Positions 937 to 10,157 of a stretch of 64,000 nt of DNA are shown here, one piece after another. Each line of letters begins with the position of its first letter. Position 1 is the first letter of the stretch. This stretch comes from Planctomycetaceae bacterium (GTDB taxonomy: Bacteria; Planctomycetota; Planctomycetia; Planctomycetales; Planctomycetaceae): positions 1-64,000 of the forward strand of contig JANQRQ010000269.1 of NCBI GenBank assembly GCA_028284485.1, in the 5' to 3' direction. Both the position numbers and the translations under genes were made by a program. The notes below the pieces were generated by a model. That model saw only the letters and a program-made list of their open reading frames with translations, had not been told where the DNA came from and made no database searches.

Positions 937-1611
937 CTACCCTCGCTTGGCGGACTTAGTCTTTCTCGCGACTCGGTAAGCGCATCGGCGGGCGCCTTCG
1001 ATGATGTGCTCGACTCGCTCGATGTCGATCTCATCGCCGAGGACTTGCTGAAAGACGGAAAGTTCGGCTCCGCACAGTCCCGTGCAGGCGGTGGCGGCTG
1101 CACAGATCGGGCAATGATTCTCGACGAACAAGAAGGAACCGTCATGGTTGTCGATGACTTCTGCCATGTAGCCTTCGTTACTTCGTATCTGAGAGAGTAT
1201 ATCGAGCCGTTTACGTAGCGATGCCCGTCGAGGCATTTTATCGCAATAGGCAGCGATTTGTTCACGCGTTCGAACGGCGAGAAGTTTTTCCAGGCCTTTG
1301 GCACCAAACGCCTGTGTCATCGATTGCACGAGGCCGACGGTCAACTCGGCATGGCCATCGGGGAAGAATCGGTCGGCGGCCGAGGTCAATTTCCAAAGCT
1401 TGACGGGGCGCCCCACCGGTTGTGGCTGTTCATCAAATGTGACGATTCTTTCATTCTGCAGCGCGTACAGATGCTGACGCACCGCCATGGCAGAAACGCC
1501 TACGTGCGCCGCGAGATCTCGCGCATCGCTCGGCCCCTCCTTTTTAAGCAGGTTGAGGATGACCTGACGCGAACGTTGTTTTGTCGGAGGCGGGGTTTGG
1601 GAACTGGGCAT
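937..1611 (-). CDS. SufR/COG2345-like winged-helix repressor with Fe-S-type cysteines
   Basis: This 224-residue protein has an N-terminal winged helix (about residues 12-75, including the recognition-helix segment DLAAHVGVSAMAVRQHLYAL). The C-terminal half carries cysteines at 167, 170, 176, 180 and 210 in the arrangement seen in SufR-like regulators that sense iron-sulfur or redox state. It is divergent from the Rieske and ferredoxin genes, so control of those genes is the natural inference. The ATG at 1611 has no ribosome binding site and lies at the predicted transcription start, suggesting a leaderless mRNA. A ligand other than an Fe-S cluster cannot be excluded. Confidence 0.82.
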   Translation of the reverse strand: MPSSQTPPPTKQRSRQVILNLLKKEGPSDARDLAAHVGVSAMAVRQHLYALQNERIVTFDEQPQPVGRPVKLWKLTSAADRFFPDGHAELTVGLVQSMTQAFGAKGLEKLLAVRTREQIAAYCDKMPRRASLRKRLDILSQIRSNEGYMAEVIDNHDGSFLFVENHCPICAAATACTGLCGAELSVFQQVLGDEIDIERVEHIIEGARRCAYRVARKTKSAKRG

Positions 1612-1745: not shown

Positions 1746-3320
1746 ATGACCTGGGTGAAGGCGACGACCGTCGAAGAGCTACAGAATTGTCCGCAGTTGT
1801 TCCGAGCGTCCCCCAAGCAGATTGCCTTGTTTCAAGTGGACGGCCGCTCCTTTGCCGTCGACAACCGTTGTCCTCATGAAGGGTATCCCTTGATCGAAGG
1901 CAGCGTCGACGAGGCGTGTCTGTTGACATGCAACTGGCACAACTGGAAGTTTCGCCTTGAGGACGGGCAGTGCGTTTTGGGGGGAGATCATGTGCGCTCG
2001 TATCCCACGCGCGAAGAAAACGGCGAAGTGTGGATCGATTTGAGTGATCCGCCAGCGGATGAATTGTTGGAGAAAACGCTGGTTGGCCTGAAGGTCGCAT
2101 TCGACGAGCGCGATTTCGGTCGGATTTGTCGTGAGATCACCCGGCTGCATTACTATCAACTCGATCCGGAGGTTGCCGTTTGGAAGGCGATCGAATGGTC
2201 GCACGACCGCTGGGAATTCGGCACGACTCATGCATATGCGGCGGCGGCCGATTGGTTGACTTTGGCGCGCGAGCAACACGAGATTTGGGATCGAAGGCTC
2301 GTTTGTTTGGCCGAAACTGTCGATCACATGGCGTTTGATGCGCTGCGGCGACCGCAGTTTCCTTATGCTGCGGTGGGTGACGAGTTCGATGCGGCAGCAT
2401 TTACCGAAGCCATTGAGGCGGAAGACCGGGAAACGGCAGAAGGCATGGTGCTGCGGGCTATGGGTGACGGATTGCATTGGCCCGAATTGGAGCCGGCCTT
2501 CACGAAGTCGGCTTTAGCCCACTACAACGATTTCGGGCATTCGCTGATTTATGTGTTGAAAACTCGGCAGTTGCTCGAGCAGGGTGGGGCGAAGCTGGAA
2601 CCATTTCTACTGCCAGCGCTGGCTCGCCATTTGATCTATACGACGCGCGAAGATTTGATTCCGGAATTTCAAGAATACGGAGCGGCGCTTGCGCAGATCG
2701 ACGAGCCGAACAAAGAGTTACCCGAATCCGGGGAATTGTTTGGTGCTTCCGTCCGGCAGGCATTGGAATGGGTGATTGTGCATCGCGCGAGCGAACCGGT
2801 GGAAGCAGTGTACGATCAACTGCTTTGTTGCTTGGCAAGGAATCTGTTGCACTACAACCTCGAGTGCGAATTCGTCGTGGAACAGCCGGTTAGCCGCAAC
2901 AAGAGTTGGCTGCACTTTACGCACGGCATTACGTTTGCGAATGCAGTGCGGGAAATGTGCAACACATATCCCGAATATTGGAATGCCGGTTTGTTGCAGA
3001 TGGCCTGCTTCATCGGCCGGAATCGTGGTTATCTGGACGAAGCGATCAACGAGTCGGAATGGTTTGTTGCCGATGACGATGAGTTTTTCGGCGAGGCGTT
3101 CGATCGAATTCTCGACCACGGACTGCGCGATCCGATCTTTTCGGCACATCTGCTGAAAACAACAATTGCCGTGCGAGATGAATGTGCGCACGCATCCGAT
3201 GATTGTGGGAAGTACTTACTGGCGGGGCTTAACCGATTTCTTCATTCGCCGATTAAACAGAAACATACCCGCCGGTTGGCGCATCAGGCGATTGCGTTGG
3301 TGAAGCGGGACTTCGACTGA
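1746..3320 (+). CDS. Rieske 2Fe-2S protein with a large unknown helical C-terminal domain
   Basis: Residues 1-100 are a Rieske fold with ligands C42-P-H44 and C62-N-W-H65, of the small ferredoxin-like type (AVDNRCPHEG, CNWHNWKF). Residues ~120-524 form a long, mostly helical domain that I do not recognise from a named family. It contains repeated His-rich segments (H149-150 region, GH265, LH390-F-T-H393). This domain appears related to the Tat protein encoded at 30115-31650. The gene is divergent from a SufR-like repressor and is followed after 157 bases by a ferredoxin, so an electron-transfer role is likely. There is no signal peptide, so the protein is cytoplasmic. The substrate is unknown. 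Confidence 0.85.
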   Translation: MTWVKATTVEELQNCPQLFRASPKQIALFQVDGRSFAVDNRCPHEGYPLIEGSVDEACLLTCNWHNWKFRLEDGQCVLGGDHVRSYPTREENGEVWIDLSDPPADELLEKTLVGLKVAFDERDFGRICREITRLHYYQLDPEVAVWKAIEWSHDRWEFGTTHAYAAAADWLTLAREQHEIWDRRLVCLAETVDHMAFDALRRPQFPYAAVGDEFDAAAFTEAIEAEDRETAEGMVLRAMGDGLHWPELEPAFTKSALAHYNDFGHSLIYVLKTRQLLEQGGAKLEPFLLPALARHLIYTTREDLIPEFQEYGAALAQIDEPNKELPESGELFGASVRQALEWVIVHRASEPVEAVYDQLLCCLARNLLHYNLECEFVVEQPVSRNKSWLHFTHGITFANAVREMCNTYPEYWNAGLLQMACFIGRNRGYLDEAINESEWFVADDDEFFGEAFDRILDHGLRDPIFSAHLLKTTIAVRDECAHASDDCGKYLLAGLNRFLHSPIKQKHTRRLAHQAIALVKRDFD

Positions 3321-3477
3321 TCAATGTCCCGTTTTTGGGTGGTAGAACGTCGGGATCGAGCAGCGGGACTTGCATCACTGAGAGAATCGTTCGATCATGA
3401 CGAACATTCATCATGTCGTTCGACACAACGACCCCAAGTGTGTTTTCGGTCATCGTTCAGATTCATCAGGAGGAGAA

Positions 3478-3837
3478 ATGCCTAAGTTGACTGTCGAAGG
3501 TGTCGGGGATTTCGAAGTCCCGGAAAACAAGCGATTAGTTCTGGCTTTAGAAGAAGAAGCTGGTGTCGACCAGTTGCATGCCTGCGGGGGAAATTCCAAA
3601 TGCACAACCTGCAAAGTGGAATTCGTTACCGGAGAACCGCAGAAGATGACCGCTGCTGAAAAGGAGACGCTGACAGCACGCGAACTGACCGGCGTGCGGT
3701 TGAGTTGCCAGGTTCTCTGCGATCAGGATATGACCGTGCGTGCGATCAGCCGCCTGGAAGGGAGCGGCCGCGCCGATGCCGGCGGCCGACCGACCGACGA
3801 ACTTCAGCCGCAACCGGTGGAGTGGGTCGACTCGTAA
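3478..3837 (+). CDS. 2Fe-2S ferredoxin
   Basis: This 119-residue plant/adrenodoxin-type ferredoxin has cluster ligands C36-x5-C42-x2-C45 and C77. The ATG at 3478 is preceded by a strong AGGAGG (about 3469-3474), so the longer upstream reading frame is not used. It lies downstream of the Rieske gene and probably exchanges electrons with it or with a related oxidoreductase. The last ~25 residues are a polar tail rich in Gly, Asp and Pro beyond the usual ferredoxin end. Confidence 0.9.
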   Translation: MPKLTVEGVGDFEVPENKRLVLALEEEAGVDQLHACGGNSKCTTCKVEFVTGEPQKMTAAEKETLTARELTGVRLSCQVLCDQDMTVRAISRLEGSGRADAGGRPTDELQPQPVEWVDS

Positions 3838-3959
3838 TTCGCGCATGCGACAGGACTTCTGGACGGCAGAACCGTGGCGGTGACATGATTTCCCGGCGAG
3901 TTCACCCATGTTGCGTATTTGAAGATTCTTTGAAATTCTTCGAAATCCCCGGCTGATTG

Positions 3960-3988
3960 TTGACAGACTTTGGCGATTTGACTCTAAT
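3960..3988 (+). promoter_or_regulatory. Strong sigma70-type promoter of the DUF1559 operon
   Basis: A perfect -35 TTGACA (3960-3965) is followed by a 17-base spacer and a -10 TCTAAT (3983-3988, five of six consensus bases). Transcription would begin about 3995, leaving a leader of roughly 170 nt before the ATG at 4166. Confidence 0.7.
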
Positions 3989-4050
3989 TCTTACATGAGA
4001 TTGAGACTCAATCTCAATTAAATGTCCCGTTTTGGGGGCATTTAGAGTCA
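3979..4050 (+). repeat. 9-bp inverted repeat enclosing the Fur-like box
   Basis: TGACTCTAA (3979-3987) and its exact complement TTAGAGTCA (4042-4050) flank the palindrome. The left arm overlaps the -10 element. It may help form a hairpin in DNA, or it may be coincidental. Confidence 0.4.
3996..4016. promoter_or_regulatory. Fur-box-like 21-bp palindrome at the start site
   Basis: The site is TGAGATTGAG, one central A (4006), then the exact complement of the first arm. It can be read as two overlapping 7-1-7 half-site pairs offset by six bases, the layout known for Fur-family operators. It begins one base after the predicted transcription start. Which Fur-family member (Fur, Zur, Mur or PerR) binds it cannot be told from sequence. 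Confidence 0.65.
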
Positions 4051-4090
4051 GCCAGCCAGCGGAATCCTCTGTGGAAAGCCAGCCAGCCCG

Positions 4091-4131
4091 ACTCAAACGT
4101 GGCACGTGTAGCCGTTGCCACGGAATTGAGT
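4091..4131 (+). promoter_or_regulatory. Leader stem-loop upstream of the DUF1559 gene
   Basis: Two nested stems are perfect: ACTCAA (4091-4096) with TTGAGT (4126-4131), and GTGGCA (4099-4104) with TGCCAC (4116-4121), around an 11-base loop. It sits 34 bases before the start codon in the predicted leader, so it could affect mRNA stability or translation. Confidence 0.5.
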
Positions 4132-4165
4132 GTCTTAGGCCCTTGTTATCCACAGGAGGAGTTGC

Positions 4166-5047
4166 ATGTTGAGTCGTCCACGAGTGAACCGCTACCAACG
4201 CGGATTCACGTTGATCGAGCTGTTGGTTGTCATCGCGATCATCGCGATTCTGATTTCCCTACTGATGCCCGCCGTGCAGCAGGCCCGCGAGGCCGCCCGC
4301 AGCACAAGCTGCCGGAACAATATGAAGCAAATTGGGCTGGCGATGCATAACTACCACGACGTCTACACGACGTTACCACTTGGTACGAACCCGCAGCTCT
4401 ATGGTCCGCTTGTCGCGATTCTACCGCATTTGGATCAGGCCGCCGTCCAGGACTTGTATGACTTCGATCTCTACTACACGAATCCAAAGAACCTGGAAGC
4501 GATTAATCGCTCGATTCCGCTTTATCTGTGTCCCACGATGATTCTGCCGCGTGGAGTTCCAAACGAGCCTTGCAACGAAGCGGGTGGACCGACGAGCTAC
4601 GGGGGCTCGATGGGGACGTCCGCGTCTGCGGACGACGGATTGTTCTCAGGGTACGGTGGCTTTAGGGCTCCAGTCCCGACACGGTTCAGGGATATTTCGG
4701 ACGGTATGACCAATACGATCATGTGTGGCGAATTCAACTATCAATTGCCGGACTACGTGTGGTCCGCCTTTAGTTGCCGGTCTGATCCTTCCGCAAGTGG
4801 CAAAGCCCGATTTGGCAGTTACCGGTGGGCGCCGGGTTACCCAGGAGTTTCGCTGGGCGATACGTCTGGTGACTTCAATGTGAACGAGAAAGCCAATCGA
4901 CTGACGTGGCGCAGTGACCATCATGGGGGAGCCAACTTTCTTTTGGCCGACGGTTCCGTGAAATTTGTTAACGAGAACATCGACTCGGAAGTGCTCGACA
5001 ATCTGGCAGCCCGGAATGACGGAGAGGTTGTTGCCGGCAGCTTCTGA
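4166..5047 (+). CDS. DUF1559 prepilin-like protein
   Basis: This 293-residue protein begins with a type IV prepilin-type leader: a basic N-terminus, then [17 protein letters not shown], with cleavage expected after the Gly at ~13. The DUF1559 domain follows, including [25 protein letters not shown] near the N-terminus and the C-terminal [15 protein letters not shown] signature. Planctomycetes carry many copies. Individual functions are unknown, but a pseudopilin-like surface or periplasmic role is inferred. A good GGAGG lies before the ATG. It is the first gene behind the Fur-like promoter. Confidence 0.95.
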
Positions 5048-5217
5048 TCGAGGAGATAGCGAGCGAGCAGTGGCCGCAGCTGGTTGTACGAATCTGAACC
5101 GGCATGCTGGAGTCTGATTTCACGACCCGACCGAGGTTTCCACATGCCGACTCGTATTTCGAGAGAAGTCGGCGTCCCTGATCGAGAGAATTGTTTAAAG
5201 AATTAAGGAATAGAACG

Positions 5218-5757
5218 GTGAACGTTTTTCATTCGGTACACCAGTATCGGAGCAATGGTCGTAGTCGCCAACTTGGCGTTACCGCGACACGGGAAGCGGC
5301 CCATCTGCGATTCACATGGTGTATTGTCAGTATTGTTGTGGTGGGCGCTCTGGGATGTGGATCGCAGGACGCGGATCCGCGAGGCGTGCGCGTTGCAGTG
5401 CACGGAAATGTAACATTGGACGGTACGCCTTTGTCGCGTGCCCGCATTGTCTTTTTGAGTGAAGGCGAAAAAGGGGCCGTCAAAGCGACCGGATCGATCG
5501 AAGACGGTACCTACCAGATCCCACAAGAGAATGGCCCTTTGGTCGGAAAATCGCGAGTTGAGATCTACTCTGAGATGGCAGACTTCGAAGAGTTCGAAGC
5601 GGCGAAAGCCTCGAACAAGCGAGTTACGAGACCGTCCGCAGTGTCGCGAATCCCGATCAACTACAATACACGGTCGACATTGACGGCTGATGTCCAAGAG
5701 CAAGAGGAAAACACGTTCGACTTCTCGCTAAAATCGGGAGCCGGGCGTCGCCGCTGA
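5218..5757 (+). CDS. Small lipoprotein with carboxypeptidase-regulatory-like beta domain
   Basis: The GTG at 5218 has an AAGGA about eight bases upstream and is preferred to the TTG at 5191. The product (179 residues) has an unusually long, basic N-terminus, then a hydrophobic stretch ending in the lipobox GALGC, so it should be lipid-anchored. The rest is a small beta-sandwich-like domain (VHGNVTLDGTPLSRARIVF...), as found in proteins that commonly follow DUF1559 genes in planctomycetes. It lies 170 bases after the DUF1559 gene. A structural or ligand-binding role at the cell surface is inferred. Confidence 0.8.
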   Translation: MNVFHSVHQYRSNGRSRQLGVTATREAAHLRFTWCIVSIVVVGALGCGSQDADPRGVRVAVHGNVTLDGTPLSRARIVFLSEGEKGAVKATGSIEDGTYQIPQENGPLVGKSRVEIYSEMADFEEFEAAKASNKRVTRPSAVSRIPINYNTRSTLTADVQEQEENTFDFSLKSGAGRRR

Positions 5758-5914
5758 TTCACCCATTTGGGGGACGTCGATATCTGGATCGTCTCAGTCC
5801 ATGACTTCGTAGAATGTTATTGAACTTTCATTACCTGGTTTGTTGATTCGGCAATTGAATATGACGTCTGACAAGTCTGCTGTCGGGCTATCCACGATCG
5901 AAAGGATCACAGAA

Positions 5915-7564
5915 ATGAGTTTCAAACGGATGATAATGCTGGCATTGGCGGCGGTCGTCGCCGTTCCTCAACTGGCGCAGGCGCATTTCCCCTGGCTGGT
6001 TGTGGATGAGGGGCACGGCAAACTGGGGGTTTACTTCGGTGAACTGGCGGAACCAGACGATCCGGCCATGCTCAAGTATTTGGAGGGATCGCAGGCCTGG
6101 GCCGTTGCGTCGAAACGTGCGCCGCAGGAAATCTCTCTGGCACGAACGGAAGAGGAATTCTCTGGTGACATTCCCGGTGAGGTCGACGGACGGCAACTGT
6201 TTGTTTTGCATAAGGACTTTGGAATCTTCAGTCGCGGCGATACGCCGTTTCGCCTGCAATACTACGCCAAGACGGGACCAGCTCTGGTAAGCAGTGCATG
6301 GAGCGAAGTCGATTGCGGAAAGCTGATGCCGTTGGACCTCATTCCTGAACGCGATGGCGGGGAAGTTCGGATTCAAGTATTGTGGCATGGCAAGCCGGAT
6401 GCCGGCGCCGAAGTCAATGTGTCCGGACCTGGTATCGAGGATGTGGAGGCGACCAGCGACAAGAAGGGCTGGGTTCGTTTCGAATTAGGCGATGCCGGGT
6501 TATATTCCATCCGGGCCAAGCATGTGGAAGACGAGTCGGGCACGATCGATGGCAAATCTTTTTCGGATGTGCGACATTACTCGACATTGGCGCTTCGAGT
6601 GGGAAAAACCGAACCGGCGAAACAGGTGAGTAAGAAGTCGAACATCTCTGAAGAATCGTCGGTCTTTGCTGATCTTCCTGAATTGGTGACCAGCTTCGGG
6701 GCTGCCATTGCCGATTCGAATCTGTACGTTTTTGGGGGACATACCGGAGACGCGCACCAGTATTGGAACGAATCTCAAGCTGACACCTTATGGCGATTGA
6801 ATCTGAGTGGCAGCGGCAAATGGGAGGCCGTCATAAAAGGTCCCCGTTTGCAGGGTCTGGCGTTAGTGGCTCATGAGGGCCAGCTTTACCGCCTGGGTGG
6901 ATTCACTGCGAAGAATGCCGAGGGCGAAGAGCACGATTTGTGGTCACAAGATACGGTATCGCGATTTGATCCCAAACAGGATGAATGGTCACCGATGCCA
7001 GCCCTTCCGGAAGCTCGCTCGTCGTTTGACGCGGCTGTGTTGGACGGAACCATATTTGTCGTGGGTGGATGGAATTTACACGGTGGCAGTGAATCGCATT
7101 GGCACGAAACGGCCCATGCACTCAATTTGTCCGAAGATCACCCTCAATGGAAGCCGCTGCCCCAACCACCGTTTCAACGGCGGGCATTGTCGGTGGCTGC
7201 TCACAACGGGCGGGTCTACGCGATCGGCGGAATGCAAATGGAAGATGGTCCAACGACGCGAGTTGACATCTTCGACCCTGCCACAGGCGAGTGGTCGCTC
7301 GGCCCCAGCTTGAACGGTGAGCCGATGGAAGGTTTCGGTAGCGCAGCTTTTGCCGTCGGCGGCCAGTTGTTTGTCAGTACGATTCGTGGGAATCTGCAGC
7401 GTTTGTCTGAAGATGGCTCCCAATGGGAGAACATCCACAAGTTGGAGCGATCCCGCTTCTTTCATCGCATGCTTCCATTGTCTGCAGACAAGCTGCTGTT
7501 TGTGGGTGGGGCCGACATGTCGGTGGGCAAATTTGCCGAGCTTGATGTGGTTGATGTGGATTAA
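5915..7564 (+). CDS. Exported DUF4198 plus kelch-repeat protein
   Basis: The ATG at 5915 (AAAGGA upstream) gives a clean signal peptide ending AQA at residue 23. Residues ~24-215 match the DUF4198 pattern (HFPWLVVDEG, later a beta-sandwich segment). Such domains are often found with metal, especially nickel, cobalt or iron, uptake genes. Residues ~235-545 form a kelch beta-propeller with repeated YVFGGHTG, YRLGGFTA, FVVGGWNLHG, YAIGGMQM and LFVGGADM blades. The fusion suggests a periplasmic or surface binding protein. It is the third gene behind the Fur-like operator, consistent with metal control. Confidence 0.85.
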   Translation: MSFKRMIMLALAAVVAVPQLAQAHFPWLVVDEGHGKLGVYFGELAEPDDPAMLKYLEGSQAWAVASKRAPQEISLARTEEEFSGDIPGEVDGRQLFVLHKDFGIFSRGDTPFRLQYYAKTGPALVSSAWSEVDCGKLMPLDLIPERDGGEVRIQVLWHGKPDAGAEVNVSGPGIEDVEATSDKKGWVRFELGDAGLYSIRAKHVEDESGTIDGKSFSDVRHYSTLALRVGKTEPAKQVSKKSNISEESSVFADLPELVTSFGAAIADSNLYVFGGHTGDAHQYWNESQADTLWRLNLSGSGKWEAVIKGPRLQGLALVAHEGQLYRLGGFTAKNAEGEEHDLWSQDTVSRFDPKQDEWSPMPALPEARSSFDAAVLDGTIFVVGGWNLHGGSESHWHETAHALNLSEDHPQWKPLPQPPFQRRALSVAAHNGRVYAIGGMQMEDGPTTRVDIFDPATGEWSLGPSLNGEPMEGFGSAAFAVGGQLFVSTIRGNLQRLSEDGSQWENIHKLERSRFFHRMLPLSADKLLFVGGADMSVGKFAELDVVDVD

Positions 7565-7781
7565 GTCCTGGCGAGGCGCAAAATTTTTCTACTCGTAGGA
7601 CGGTCCCTAAAACGTTTGCAGTCAAACGCGCGCGAGCGAACCAACGATTGAACATGTCGTCGATTCCTCGGGCGCAACGACTGCGTTCGGACCCCGTATT
7701 TTCGAACGAATGGACGCGTTACCACAAGCTTGGGTCACGTGACTGGCCCATTGACGCTGCTTGACGGTTGAGAGGTAATCA

Positions 7782-8528
7782 ATGGCTGTAGAGTTGCTTT
7801 CGGTTTGGAAAGCCTACCAATCGGGCCAATTAAGCCGTGCCATGATTCTTGTCAATTCCCACTTGGTGCGGCATAACGACGACGGTCGCGGTTGGGAGAT
7901 CCTCGGGTTGATTCAATATGCCAGAGGGAAAGTCGGCATCGCTGTGTCTGCATTGGAGCGGGCGGCATTATTTGTGCCGTTGGTCCCGGCGGCCCGAGTT
8001 TGCCTCGCGCACGGCTATGGAAGGATTGGGTGCCCAGAACTCTCCCGTGATTTGCTTTTAGAATTGATCGACGACGAGTCGGTTTCGATTCCGCTTCTGC
8101 TACAGGTTGCCGCCGGTTTGGATGCCGTCGATCAGCCAAGGTTGGCGATGCGCGCCTGCCAAGTCGCTGCCCAGCGGGATGCCGACCACGCGCAGGTTTA
8201 CTACGATCATGGATATTATGCGGCACGCAGTGGTTTTCCTCCGCATGTGACGGAGTCACTCGCGCGGAAGGCACTCGAATTGGACCCGGACAACGTCCGC
8301 TTTCGAGTGGGACTGGCTTCGATGCTGATCCGGCAAGACCGCAACGACGAGGCTTACGAATTCGTACGAGAATTTTCAAATGCTCAAATTGAGCAGATTA
8401 ACTGCCGTTGCTGTTTGGAGCGAATCGTCCAGCTATTTGAAGAAGCGCATGACTACCGTCGCGTTGTGCTGTGTCGGCAGCAGTTACTTTCTCTGGAATT
8501 GCGCGGAGTCGAGTCGGATTGTGAATAG
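7782..8528 (+). CDS. Tetratricopeptide-repeat protein
   Basis: This 248-residue all-helical protein has several TPR-like units, for example GWEILGLIQYARGKVGIAVSALERAALFVP and ALELDPDNVRFRVGLASMLIRQDR. It has no signal peptide or membrane segment. AGAGGT lies just before the ATG. The role is likely protein-protein interaction; the partner is unknown. The preceding 217-base gap shows no feature I can support. Confidence 0.75.
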   Translation: MAVELLSVWKAYQSGQLSRAMILVNSHLVRHNDDGRGWEILGLIQYARGKVGIAVSALERAALFVPLVPAARVCLAHGYGRIGCPELSRDLLLELIDDESVSIPLLLQVAAGLDAVDQPRLAMRACQVAAQRDADHAQVYYDHGYYAARSGFPPHVTESLARKALELDPDNVRFRVGLASMLIRQDRNDEAYEFVREFSNAQIEQINCRCCLERIVQLFEEAHDYRRVVLCRQQLLSLELRGVESDCE

Positions 8529-8627
8529 TCGAACCACTGCATTTTTCGCCAGTGAACCAACCGAATTGGACAAATACTTGACATTTCTATTTGAATCGCG
8601 GTGTCGAACCGAGGGGGTAGTTTGACC

Positions 8628-10157
8628 ATGACATTTTGGATGCTCGTTACTACGCATGTTCAAGCATTTCTCGGGGTCGCTTTGTTATTGTATTTCTCGG
8701 TTGTCATGCGCAACGCGGTGGCCTTATTCGCGATTCCTCTATTCAACAAGACCGTGCGGAAGTACCGAAAACAGATTCAGCTTGCTGCCGCTTCGCAAAT
8801 TCGCAAGCAATCGATGCCCGGCCGCACTTTGCCGATCCGAGACTTTGGAATCTACCTGCAGAATTCGGTGCCAATCGCTGTAATCGCTGCAGCAATCATC
8901 ATGTCGCAGCCCGGCTATACTGCTGCCGGAGAGAATTGGCCATCTTTTCAAAACGGTGGGCAGGTCTCATTGGAAAGCGACCATGCTGCCAAGCTTTCCG
9001 AAAGGAAGTGGACCGCGACAATTAAGGGCTATGGTCAATCGAGCCCCGTCGCCTTCAATGGTCAAGTGTATGTCACATCGGTCTCCGGCGAGAATAAGGA
9101 TCAGTACCACATCACAGCCTACCGCATCGCGGATGGCGAACAGATTTGGCAACACGACCTTGCCAATGCCACTCCCCAAGAAAACAACAACTATGTCAGC
9201 AAAGCGGCGCCAACCCCGGCAGCCGACGACAATGGCGTCATCTGCTCCTTTGAAGGGGGTAACCTTGTTGCATTGACTCACGAAGGAGTCGTTCGTTGGG
9301 AACGCAATCTTGTAGAGGAATATGGCGCGATCGATGCACGCCACGGATTAGCGGCCTCACTTGAACAATCAGACGATGCCGTTTTCGTTTGGGTCGAACG
9401 TCAGACCGATCCTTACGTCCTTGCTGTCGATAAACCGACTGGCAAAACGATCTGGAAAGTTCCTGGTATTGGGGCCACGAGTTGGGCAAGTCCCAGGCTG
9501 ATTGAAGTAGATGGTGGGAGTCACCTGGTACTGAGCGGTATCGGCACGCTGAAGGGGCTCGACCCAGAGACCGGAGAACAATTGTGGTCGTTCGATGGCA
9601 TTTCTGGCAATTCGACGCCGACGCCGATCCCCATGGGCGAAGGACGCTTTCTCATCGGCGCGACCGTCGGCCGCGAATCGTCTGGCGACGGCAATGCTGC
9701 GGAGTCGAACGGTGTTGTGGCAATTCAACAGGTCGAACCGGGTGTTTGGAATGTCGACTACCTGTGGAAGGCGAAACGGGCTACCAGTTCGTTCGGTTCA
9801 CCAATCATCCACTCTGGTTTCGCCTACTTCGTTAATCGTAGCGGCGTACTGTATTGTCTCGATGCGACATCCGGCCAAGAGGCGTACGCCGAACGTGTCG
9901 GAAGCAGTGTGTGGGCGACTCCAATTGCGTTTCAAAGTCGGCTGTTGTTTTTCGGAAAGGACGGCGTAGTGAAAAGCATCGCCGCGGGCAACACTTTTCA
10001 CGTGTTAGGTGAGGCCAATGTGCTTCCCGATCCTGCCGCCGACTCAGGTGCGGGCGAGGCCAATCCGTTCGGCGGTCCGACGTTGTATGCGGGGATCGCT
10101 GTCGACAACACGATTCTCGTTCGGAGTGGGAACGAGTTGATCTGTCTTGGCCCGTAG
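8628..10157 (+). CDS. PQQ-like beta-propeller repeat protein with membrane-anchored N-terminus
   Basis: About residues 100-505 form a PQQ/WD-like beta-propeller (PSFQNGGQVS, SSPVAFNGQVYVTS, AYRIADGEQIWQH, LYCLDATSGQEAYAERVGSSVWATPI). No PQQ-ligand set of a true quinoprotein is evident. The first ~90 residues carry a hydrophobic helix (FLGVALLLYFSVVMRNAVALFAI), then a basic segment and a second hydrophobic stretch (IAVIAAAIIM) that resembles a signal peptide. The ATG at 8628 follows GAGGGGG; GTG at 8601 or an internal ATG near 8814 are alternatives. Planctomycetes use such exported propellers in large numbers. Confidence 0.8.
   Translation: MTFWMLVTTHVQAFLGVALLLYFSVVMRNAVALFAIPLFNKTVRKYRKQIQLAAASQIRKQSMPGRTLPIRDFGIYLQNSVPIAVIAAAIIMSQPGYTAAGENWPSFQNGGQVSLESDHAAKLSERKWTATIKGYGQSSPVAFNGQVYVTSVSGENKDQYHITAYRIADGEQIWQHDLANATPQENNNYVSKAAPTPAADDNGVICSFEGGNLVALTHEGVVRWERNLVEEYGAIDARHGLAASLEQSDDAVFVWVERQTDPYVLAVDKPTGKTIWKVPGIGATSWASPRLIEVDGGSHLVLSGIGTLKGLDPETGEQLWSFDGISGNSTPTPIPMGEGRFLIGATVGRESSGDGNAAESNGVVAIQQVEPGVWNVDYLWKAKRATSSFGSPIIHSGFAYFVNRSGVLYCLDATSGQEAYAERVGSSVWATPIAFQSRLLFFGKDGVVKSIAAGNTFHVLGEANVLPDPAADSGAGEANPFGGPTLYAGIAVDNTILVRSGNELICLGP

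Follow-up and report, generated by a model that had tools for sequence, protein, structure and literature searches.

The Fur box in its double 7-1-7 form is a 21-bp element with the E. coli/Bacillus consensus TGATAATGATAATCATTATCA. Crystal structures of Fur have shown two dimers on a 7-1-7 repeat offset by 6 as one of two binding modes (PMC7536154), and the double 7-1-7 mode was also described in PMC4506495. In two Caulobacter clusters, the genes under the strongest iron and Fur regulation are those encoding DUF4198 proteins (PMC3751524). Such genes are also iron-responsive in Alteromonas (PMC7190382) and accompany PepSY-like/flavinylation clusters (PMC8238504), which have been proposed to aid periplasmic iron reduction (PMC12004947). 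The pilin-like DUF1559 proteins (PF07596) are encoded by 74 genes in Rhodopirellula baltica (PMC2754498). Neither a regulator of any DUF1559 gene nor a planctomycete Fur regulon was found in the literature searched.

The window, by which we mean the whole 64-kb stretch of planctomycete DNA analysed here, contains the palindrome TGAGATTGAGACTCAATCTCA at 3996-4016, upstream of genes for a DUF1559 protein, a putative lipoprotein and a DUF4198/kelch protein (Table 1). The initial annotation had described a perfect 21-bp palindrome of overlapping 7-1-7 pairs, and this was confirmed, with 10 of 10 arm pairs matching around A4006 and with the two units, TGAGATT-G-AGACTCA (3996-4010) and TGAGACT-C-AATCTCA (4002-4016), offset by 6. 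It is the sole perfect palindrome with 10-bp arms and a spacer of 0-5 in the window, and shuffled windows gave 0.01 matches to it at ≤3 mismatches. The E. coli/Bacillus Fur box shares its length, the 7-1-7 offset-by-6 layout, the TGA...TCA frame and the place over the promoter start, and the window box is identical to the E. coli-type 21-mer at 15 of 21 positions. The difference lies in the planctomycete consensus TTGAGAYTSARTCTCAA, which carries other bases at fixed heptamer positions.

Table 1. Features of the predicted Fur-controlled operon and its surroundings (window coordinates)
Feature	Position	Strand	Basis
SufR-like regulator	937-1611	-	TIGR02702 9e-35, below cut-off
Rieske [2Fe-2S] protein	1746-3320	+	
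2Fe-2S ferredoxin	3478-3837	+	
-35 element TTGACA	3960-3965	+	Sequence; TTGACA/TTGAAA at equivalent place in many orthologous promoters
-10 element TCTAAT, imperfect (second base C)	3983-3988	+	Sequence; orthologues with TANNNT
Predicted Fur operator: palindrome of 21 bp built from two 7-1-7 units offset by 6	3996-4016	.	Sequence, feoAB-matrix score, orthologue conservation
Short hairpin directly after box, TAAATGTCCC / GGGGCATTTA	4019-4044	+	Window sequence, folding
Leader-RNA element, divergent local copy	4045-4094	+	Closing stem GAGTC/GACTC around AGCCAGCCAGC ... GCCAGCCAGCCC
Shine-Dalgarno AGGAGG of DUF1559 gene	4154-4159	+	Sequence
DUF1559 protein, 293 aa	4166-5047	+	PF07596 8.5e-51, PF07963, TIGR04294
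Small putative lipoprotein, ≤188 aa, start uncertain	5191-5757	+	Open frame, lipobox-like ...GALGC
DUF4198 + kelch-propeller protein, 549 aa, signal peptide	5915-7564	+	PF10670, PF01344
Second DUF1559 subfamily, loci with box: L037 (contig C179), L177, L183, L198, L207, L217, L220, L228, L229, L231			

The palindrome is very probably a Fur operator of the double 7-1-7 kind, spanning the predicted start of the DUF1559-lipoprotein-DUF4198/kelch operon. This was deduced because near-identical sites hold the equivalent promoter position at iron-uptake genes and at the operon across many related Planctomycetota. The Fur-family operator reading already put forward in the initial annotation is thereby supported by the recurrence at feoAB, by the matrix score and by the orthologous operons. 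The evidence comprises the 21-bp layout, a lineage consensus, overlap with the predicted start, sites at iron genes, a Fur gene in the genome and conservation among orthologues.

The promoter itself had been claimed as a strong -35/-10 pair. The two hexamers and a 17-bp spacer are present, but the -10 hexamer is imperfect, and an automatic strict promoter scan reported no promoter at 3960-3988 because TCTAAT is without A at the second position. Canonical TANNNT hexamers were found at the equivalent place in many orthologous promoters. The proposed location of the palindrome at a predicted +1 was borne out as a rule of the family: a -10 hexamer ends 4-13 bp upstream of the box in 31 of 47 feoAB and operon promoters, as against 7.8 for shuffles and 3-4 for other positions in the same DNA. 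It was therefore concluded, from 31/47 versus 7.8, that placement of the palindrome at the predicted start is a family trait. Around the box, a 9-nt inverted repeat (TGACTCTAA/TTAGAGTCA) was left aside as near chance expectation. An intrinsic terminator of the upstream ferredoxin gene was likewise dropped, no terminator-like site (G+C-rich stem, T run) being present at 3990-4050.

The box was compared with the feoAB promoters of relatives. Once feoB had been located, the surrounding regions were scanned for the consensus TTGAGAYTCARTCTCAA, which was matched at ≥14 of 17 positions in 21 of 29 feoB loci, and a matrix was built solely from these 21 sites. With this matrix the window box reaches 28.9 out of a maximum of 30.2; the matrix was not wholly blind, since the search consensus had already been seen in the window's own genome. 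Elsewhere in the window no site exceeded 7.2, and composition-matched random sequence (2 Mb) contained 0 sites at ≥20. Scoring with the matrix was next extended to 40 orthologous DUF4198/kelch loci from relatives. Among the DUF1559-headed promoters with readable upstream DNA, 22 of 28 scored ≥20, with the strong box about 70-280 bp before DUF1559, although such counts are not independent since the orthologues and genomes are related. Equal lengths taken inside the kelch gene gave 0 of 37 at ≥20, and column-permuted matrices that keep the dyad gave a mean of 0.08. In several other orthologous operons the box lies further upstream.

In GTDB genomes, a near box at ≥18 was present in 30 of 58 DUF1559-headed operons. 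The box also occurs at the operon in named genomes, e.g., Thalassoglobus, and in MAGs labelled Gimesia, Schlesneria and Roseimaritima. A scan of the named genomes with a single protein gave no match; the scan with an alignment found 230 relatives, of which 80 were kept. Boxes in the Rhodopirellula clade are mostly weak or absent, and several operons of this clade and of Blastopirellula are without a clear box. Three records labelled Acidobacteria (L275, L281 and L288) contain a DUF4198/kelch gene, but neither a box nor DUF1559 was found nearby; either transfer or misbinning may account for them.

Within the genome to which the window belongs (G000; 7.7 Mb, 363 contigs, 91% complete), the 21-mer pattern with 3 mismatches allowed was found at 4 places, compared with 0 for the reversed control. 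The half-palindromic form of the motif yielded a further site directly upstream of feoAB on contig C334. Other sites lie upstream of a second DUF1559 gene (contig C179; L037:6042-7203), between a bacterioferritin gene and an S9-like 721-aa gene (contig C184; L038:9470), and upstream of a gene for a YTV-repeat surface-type protein (contig C258; L039:8674). The 15-mer TGAGAYTSARTCTCA at ≤1 mismatch occurs only in the window and on contigs C184, C334 and C258. There are roughly 25 DUF1559 loci in this genome, with a clear box at only 2. A search for the motif near iron uptake genes, suggested in the initial annotation as a check, thus gave the expected outcome, with feoAB hit directly here and again in relatives, and with bacterioferritin close by.

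Across 59 genomes, TTGAGAYTSARTCTCAA at ≤1 mismatch gave about 150 sites (a total summed by hand from the table), and the reversed pattern gave 2. Among 68 genes flanking a sample of these sites, DUF1559 was the commonest family (14), followed by FeoB, with FeoA also present; the flanking families include S9-like proteins. Fur boxes also recur a short way ahead of the start codon in a second DUF1559 subfamily (loci in Table 1). Within the large DUF1559 family, the box is thereby seen repeatedly at two members.

Boxes of the Fur superfamily look alike, and the genome has two FUR-family genes, on contigs C42 and C225, the second of which scores best against PerR. The palindrome could accordingly be the operator of a different member of this repressor family, be it Zur, PerR, Mur or the C225 paralogue, with the operon answering zinc, peroxide or manganese. 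We consider this unlikely. The most recurrent companion of known function, in this and most related genomes, is feoAB, for which reason iron is favoured over zinc or manganese; bacterioferritin lies close to some sites, and no zinc-uptake or peroxide-defence family is among the 25 commonest families of site-flanking genes. Furthermore, the C42 paralogue is clearly Fur-like, its best PDB match being C. jejuni Fur (9.5e-30); it matches PF01475 (4.4e-29) and scores below the NCBIfam equivalog cut-offs. Of the two gene products, that of C42 is inferred to be the protein that binds the box.

A transcript starting at +1 would form a 9-bp stem from the palindrome, and the entire window leader is more stably folded than its shuffles (z -5.1), so a hairpin at the 5' end of the transcript, acting in stability or attenuation, could be envisaged instead of protein-binding DNA. 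This is very improbable given that the 17 bp of the motif are conserved in their actual letters and not through compensatory change, that the motif also serves feoAB, whose leaders differ, and that no U-run follows the palindrome. Least probable of all, to the point of being negligible, is a chance palindrome without function. Nothing but the imperfect local -10 speaks for it, and it is contradicted by the phylogenetic conservation, by the reversed and shuffled controls, and by the palindrome being the only one of its kind in the window.

With the palindrome taken as a Fur operator, Fe(II)-Fur would, when iron is plentiful, cover +1 as two dimers and block RNA polymerase. When iron is scarce, the operon would be switched on together with feoAB, and its products (the pilin-like DUF1559 protein, the lipoprotein and the secreted DUF4198/kelch protein) would take part in iron acquisition outside the cytoplasm. 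Searches for the TonB-receptor plug domain gave no match in the window's own genome or in 12 of the 20 relatives covered. An extracytoplasmic, TonB-independent role of the operon in iron acquisition is plausible on this basis and on that of the DUF4198 literature. Since this genome and the majority of the relatives tested gave no plug-domain match, the three predicted Fur-controlled products are good candidates for a part in iron uptake.

The closest parallel is provided by Caulobacter CC2193 and CC3059-3063 (PMC3751524), where DUF4198 is likewise under Fur, the product is extracytoplasmic and feoAB is in the regulon. The Caulobacter DUF4198 partners are TonB receptors, PepSY-like proteins and DUF2271 (PMC3751524), whereas in the planctomycete operon DUF1559 and a lipoprotein are joined by a protein in which DUF4198 is fused to a kelch propeller. 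The downstream genes were as claimed in the initial annotation for DUF1559 and for DUF4198 with kelch, the middle protein having a lipobox-like Cys only. The N terminus of the DUF1559 protein resembles that of type IV pilins and carries an N-methylation motif; the C terminus is of the H-X9-DG kind. The small putative lipoprotein gave no family match, and tblastn relatives of it were found at the equivalent place in most orthologous operons. In an alignment of 39 DUF4198/kelch orthologues (L107-L146), A23-H24-F25 is invariant and follows a signal-peptide-like segment, which suggests that the mature protein may expose an N-terminal His as in histidine-brace metal proteins. The predicted structure had a pLDDT of 91.5; in a PDB search with this model the matches were swamped by kelch propellers, leaving the DUF4198 part uninformative.

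The operator is of a well-known kind; what is new, as far as the literature was searched, is the consensus of this lineage, the set of targets and the leader RNA. The data yield a phylum-level consensus of the Fur box, TTGAGAYTSARTCTCAA at +1, together with a short target list. They also offer a first clue to the regulation of DUF1559 proteins, a group with dozens of members in planctomycetes and no known role, and would tie this large family to iron starvation.

The leader between the box and DUF1559 offers a separate lead. Orthologous leaders (e.g., L116, L293 and L283) have in common CAGCMAGC and GCCAGCCACG within a closing stem, the layout of the element being closing stem, CAGCMAGC, variable hairpin and GCCAGCCACG. 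In 26 aligned leaders, 5 of the 6 closing-stem pairs are changed on both sides. The covariation score, from an alignment fitted to the stem, was 0.37 compared with 0.18 for shuffles and ≤0.14 with the partner slid; an alignment made without the closing stem gave 0.39 versus 0.19. The additional GC pairs that RNAalifold placed within the element are invariant and carry no weight either way. The leader had no Rfam match at E up to 1 (window 3400-8800 searched). Rhodopirellula-1 (PMC2864571) is likewise a candidate cis-regulatory RNA motif of Planctomycetes and carries no Rfam number in its listing.

When a model of the element was run on 30 whole genomes, strong matches were confined to the operon and to one further Fur-box leader (L341). 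The weaker matches, where inspected, fell within open frames and were discarded, and the leaders of feoAB and of the second DUF1559 group gave nothing beyond weak matches. The window copy is below the model threshold, and a similarly weak one occurs in the DUF1559 leader on contig C179. The element might most naturally be supposed to act in cis regulation or to bind a protein. A more speculative proposal, which we hold as possible though less probable than not, is that the operon is under dual control, through Fur at the DNA level and through a novel structured leader RNA that follows the Fur box of DUF1559 transcripts across Planctomycetota and would be cis-regulatory, possibly metal-sensing or regulator-binding, within a TonB-independent iron acquisition based on pilin-like DUF1559 proteins.

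A second iron-related locus lies directly upstream of the predicted Fur-controlled operon. It consists of the SufR-like regulator gene, the Rieske gene from which it diverges, and the ferredoxin gene that follows.
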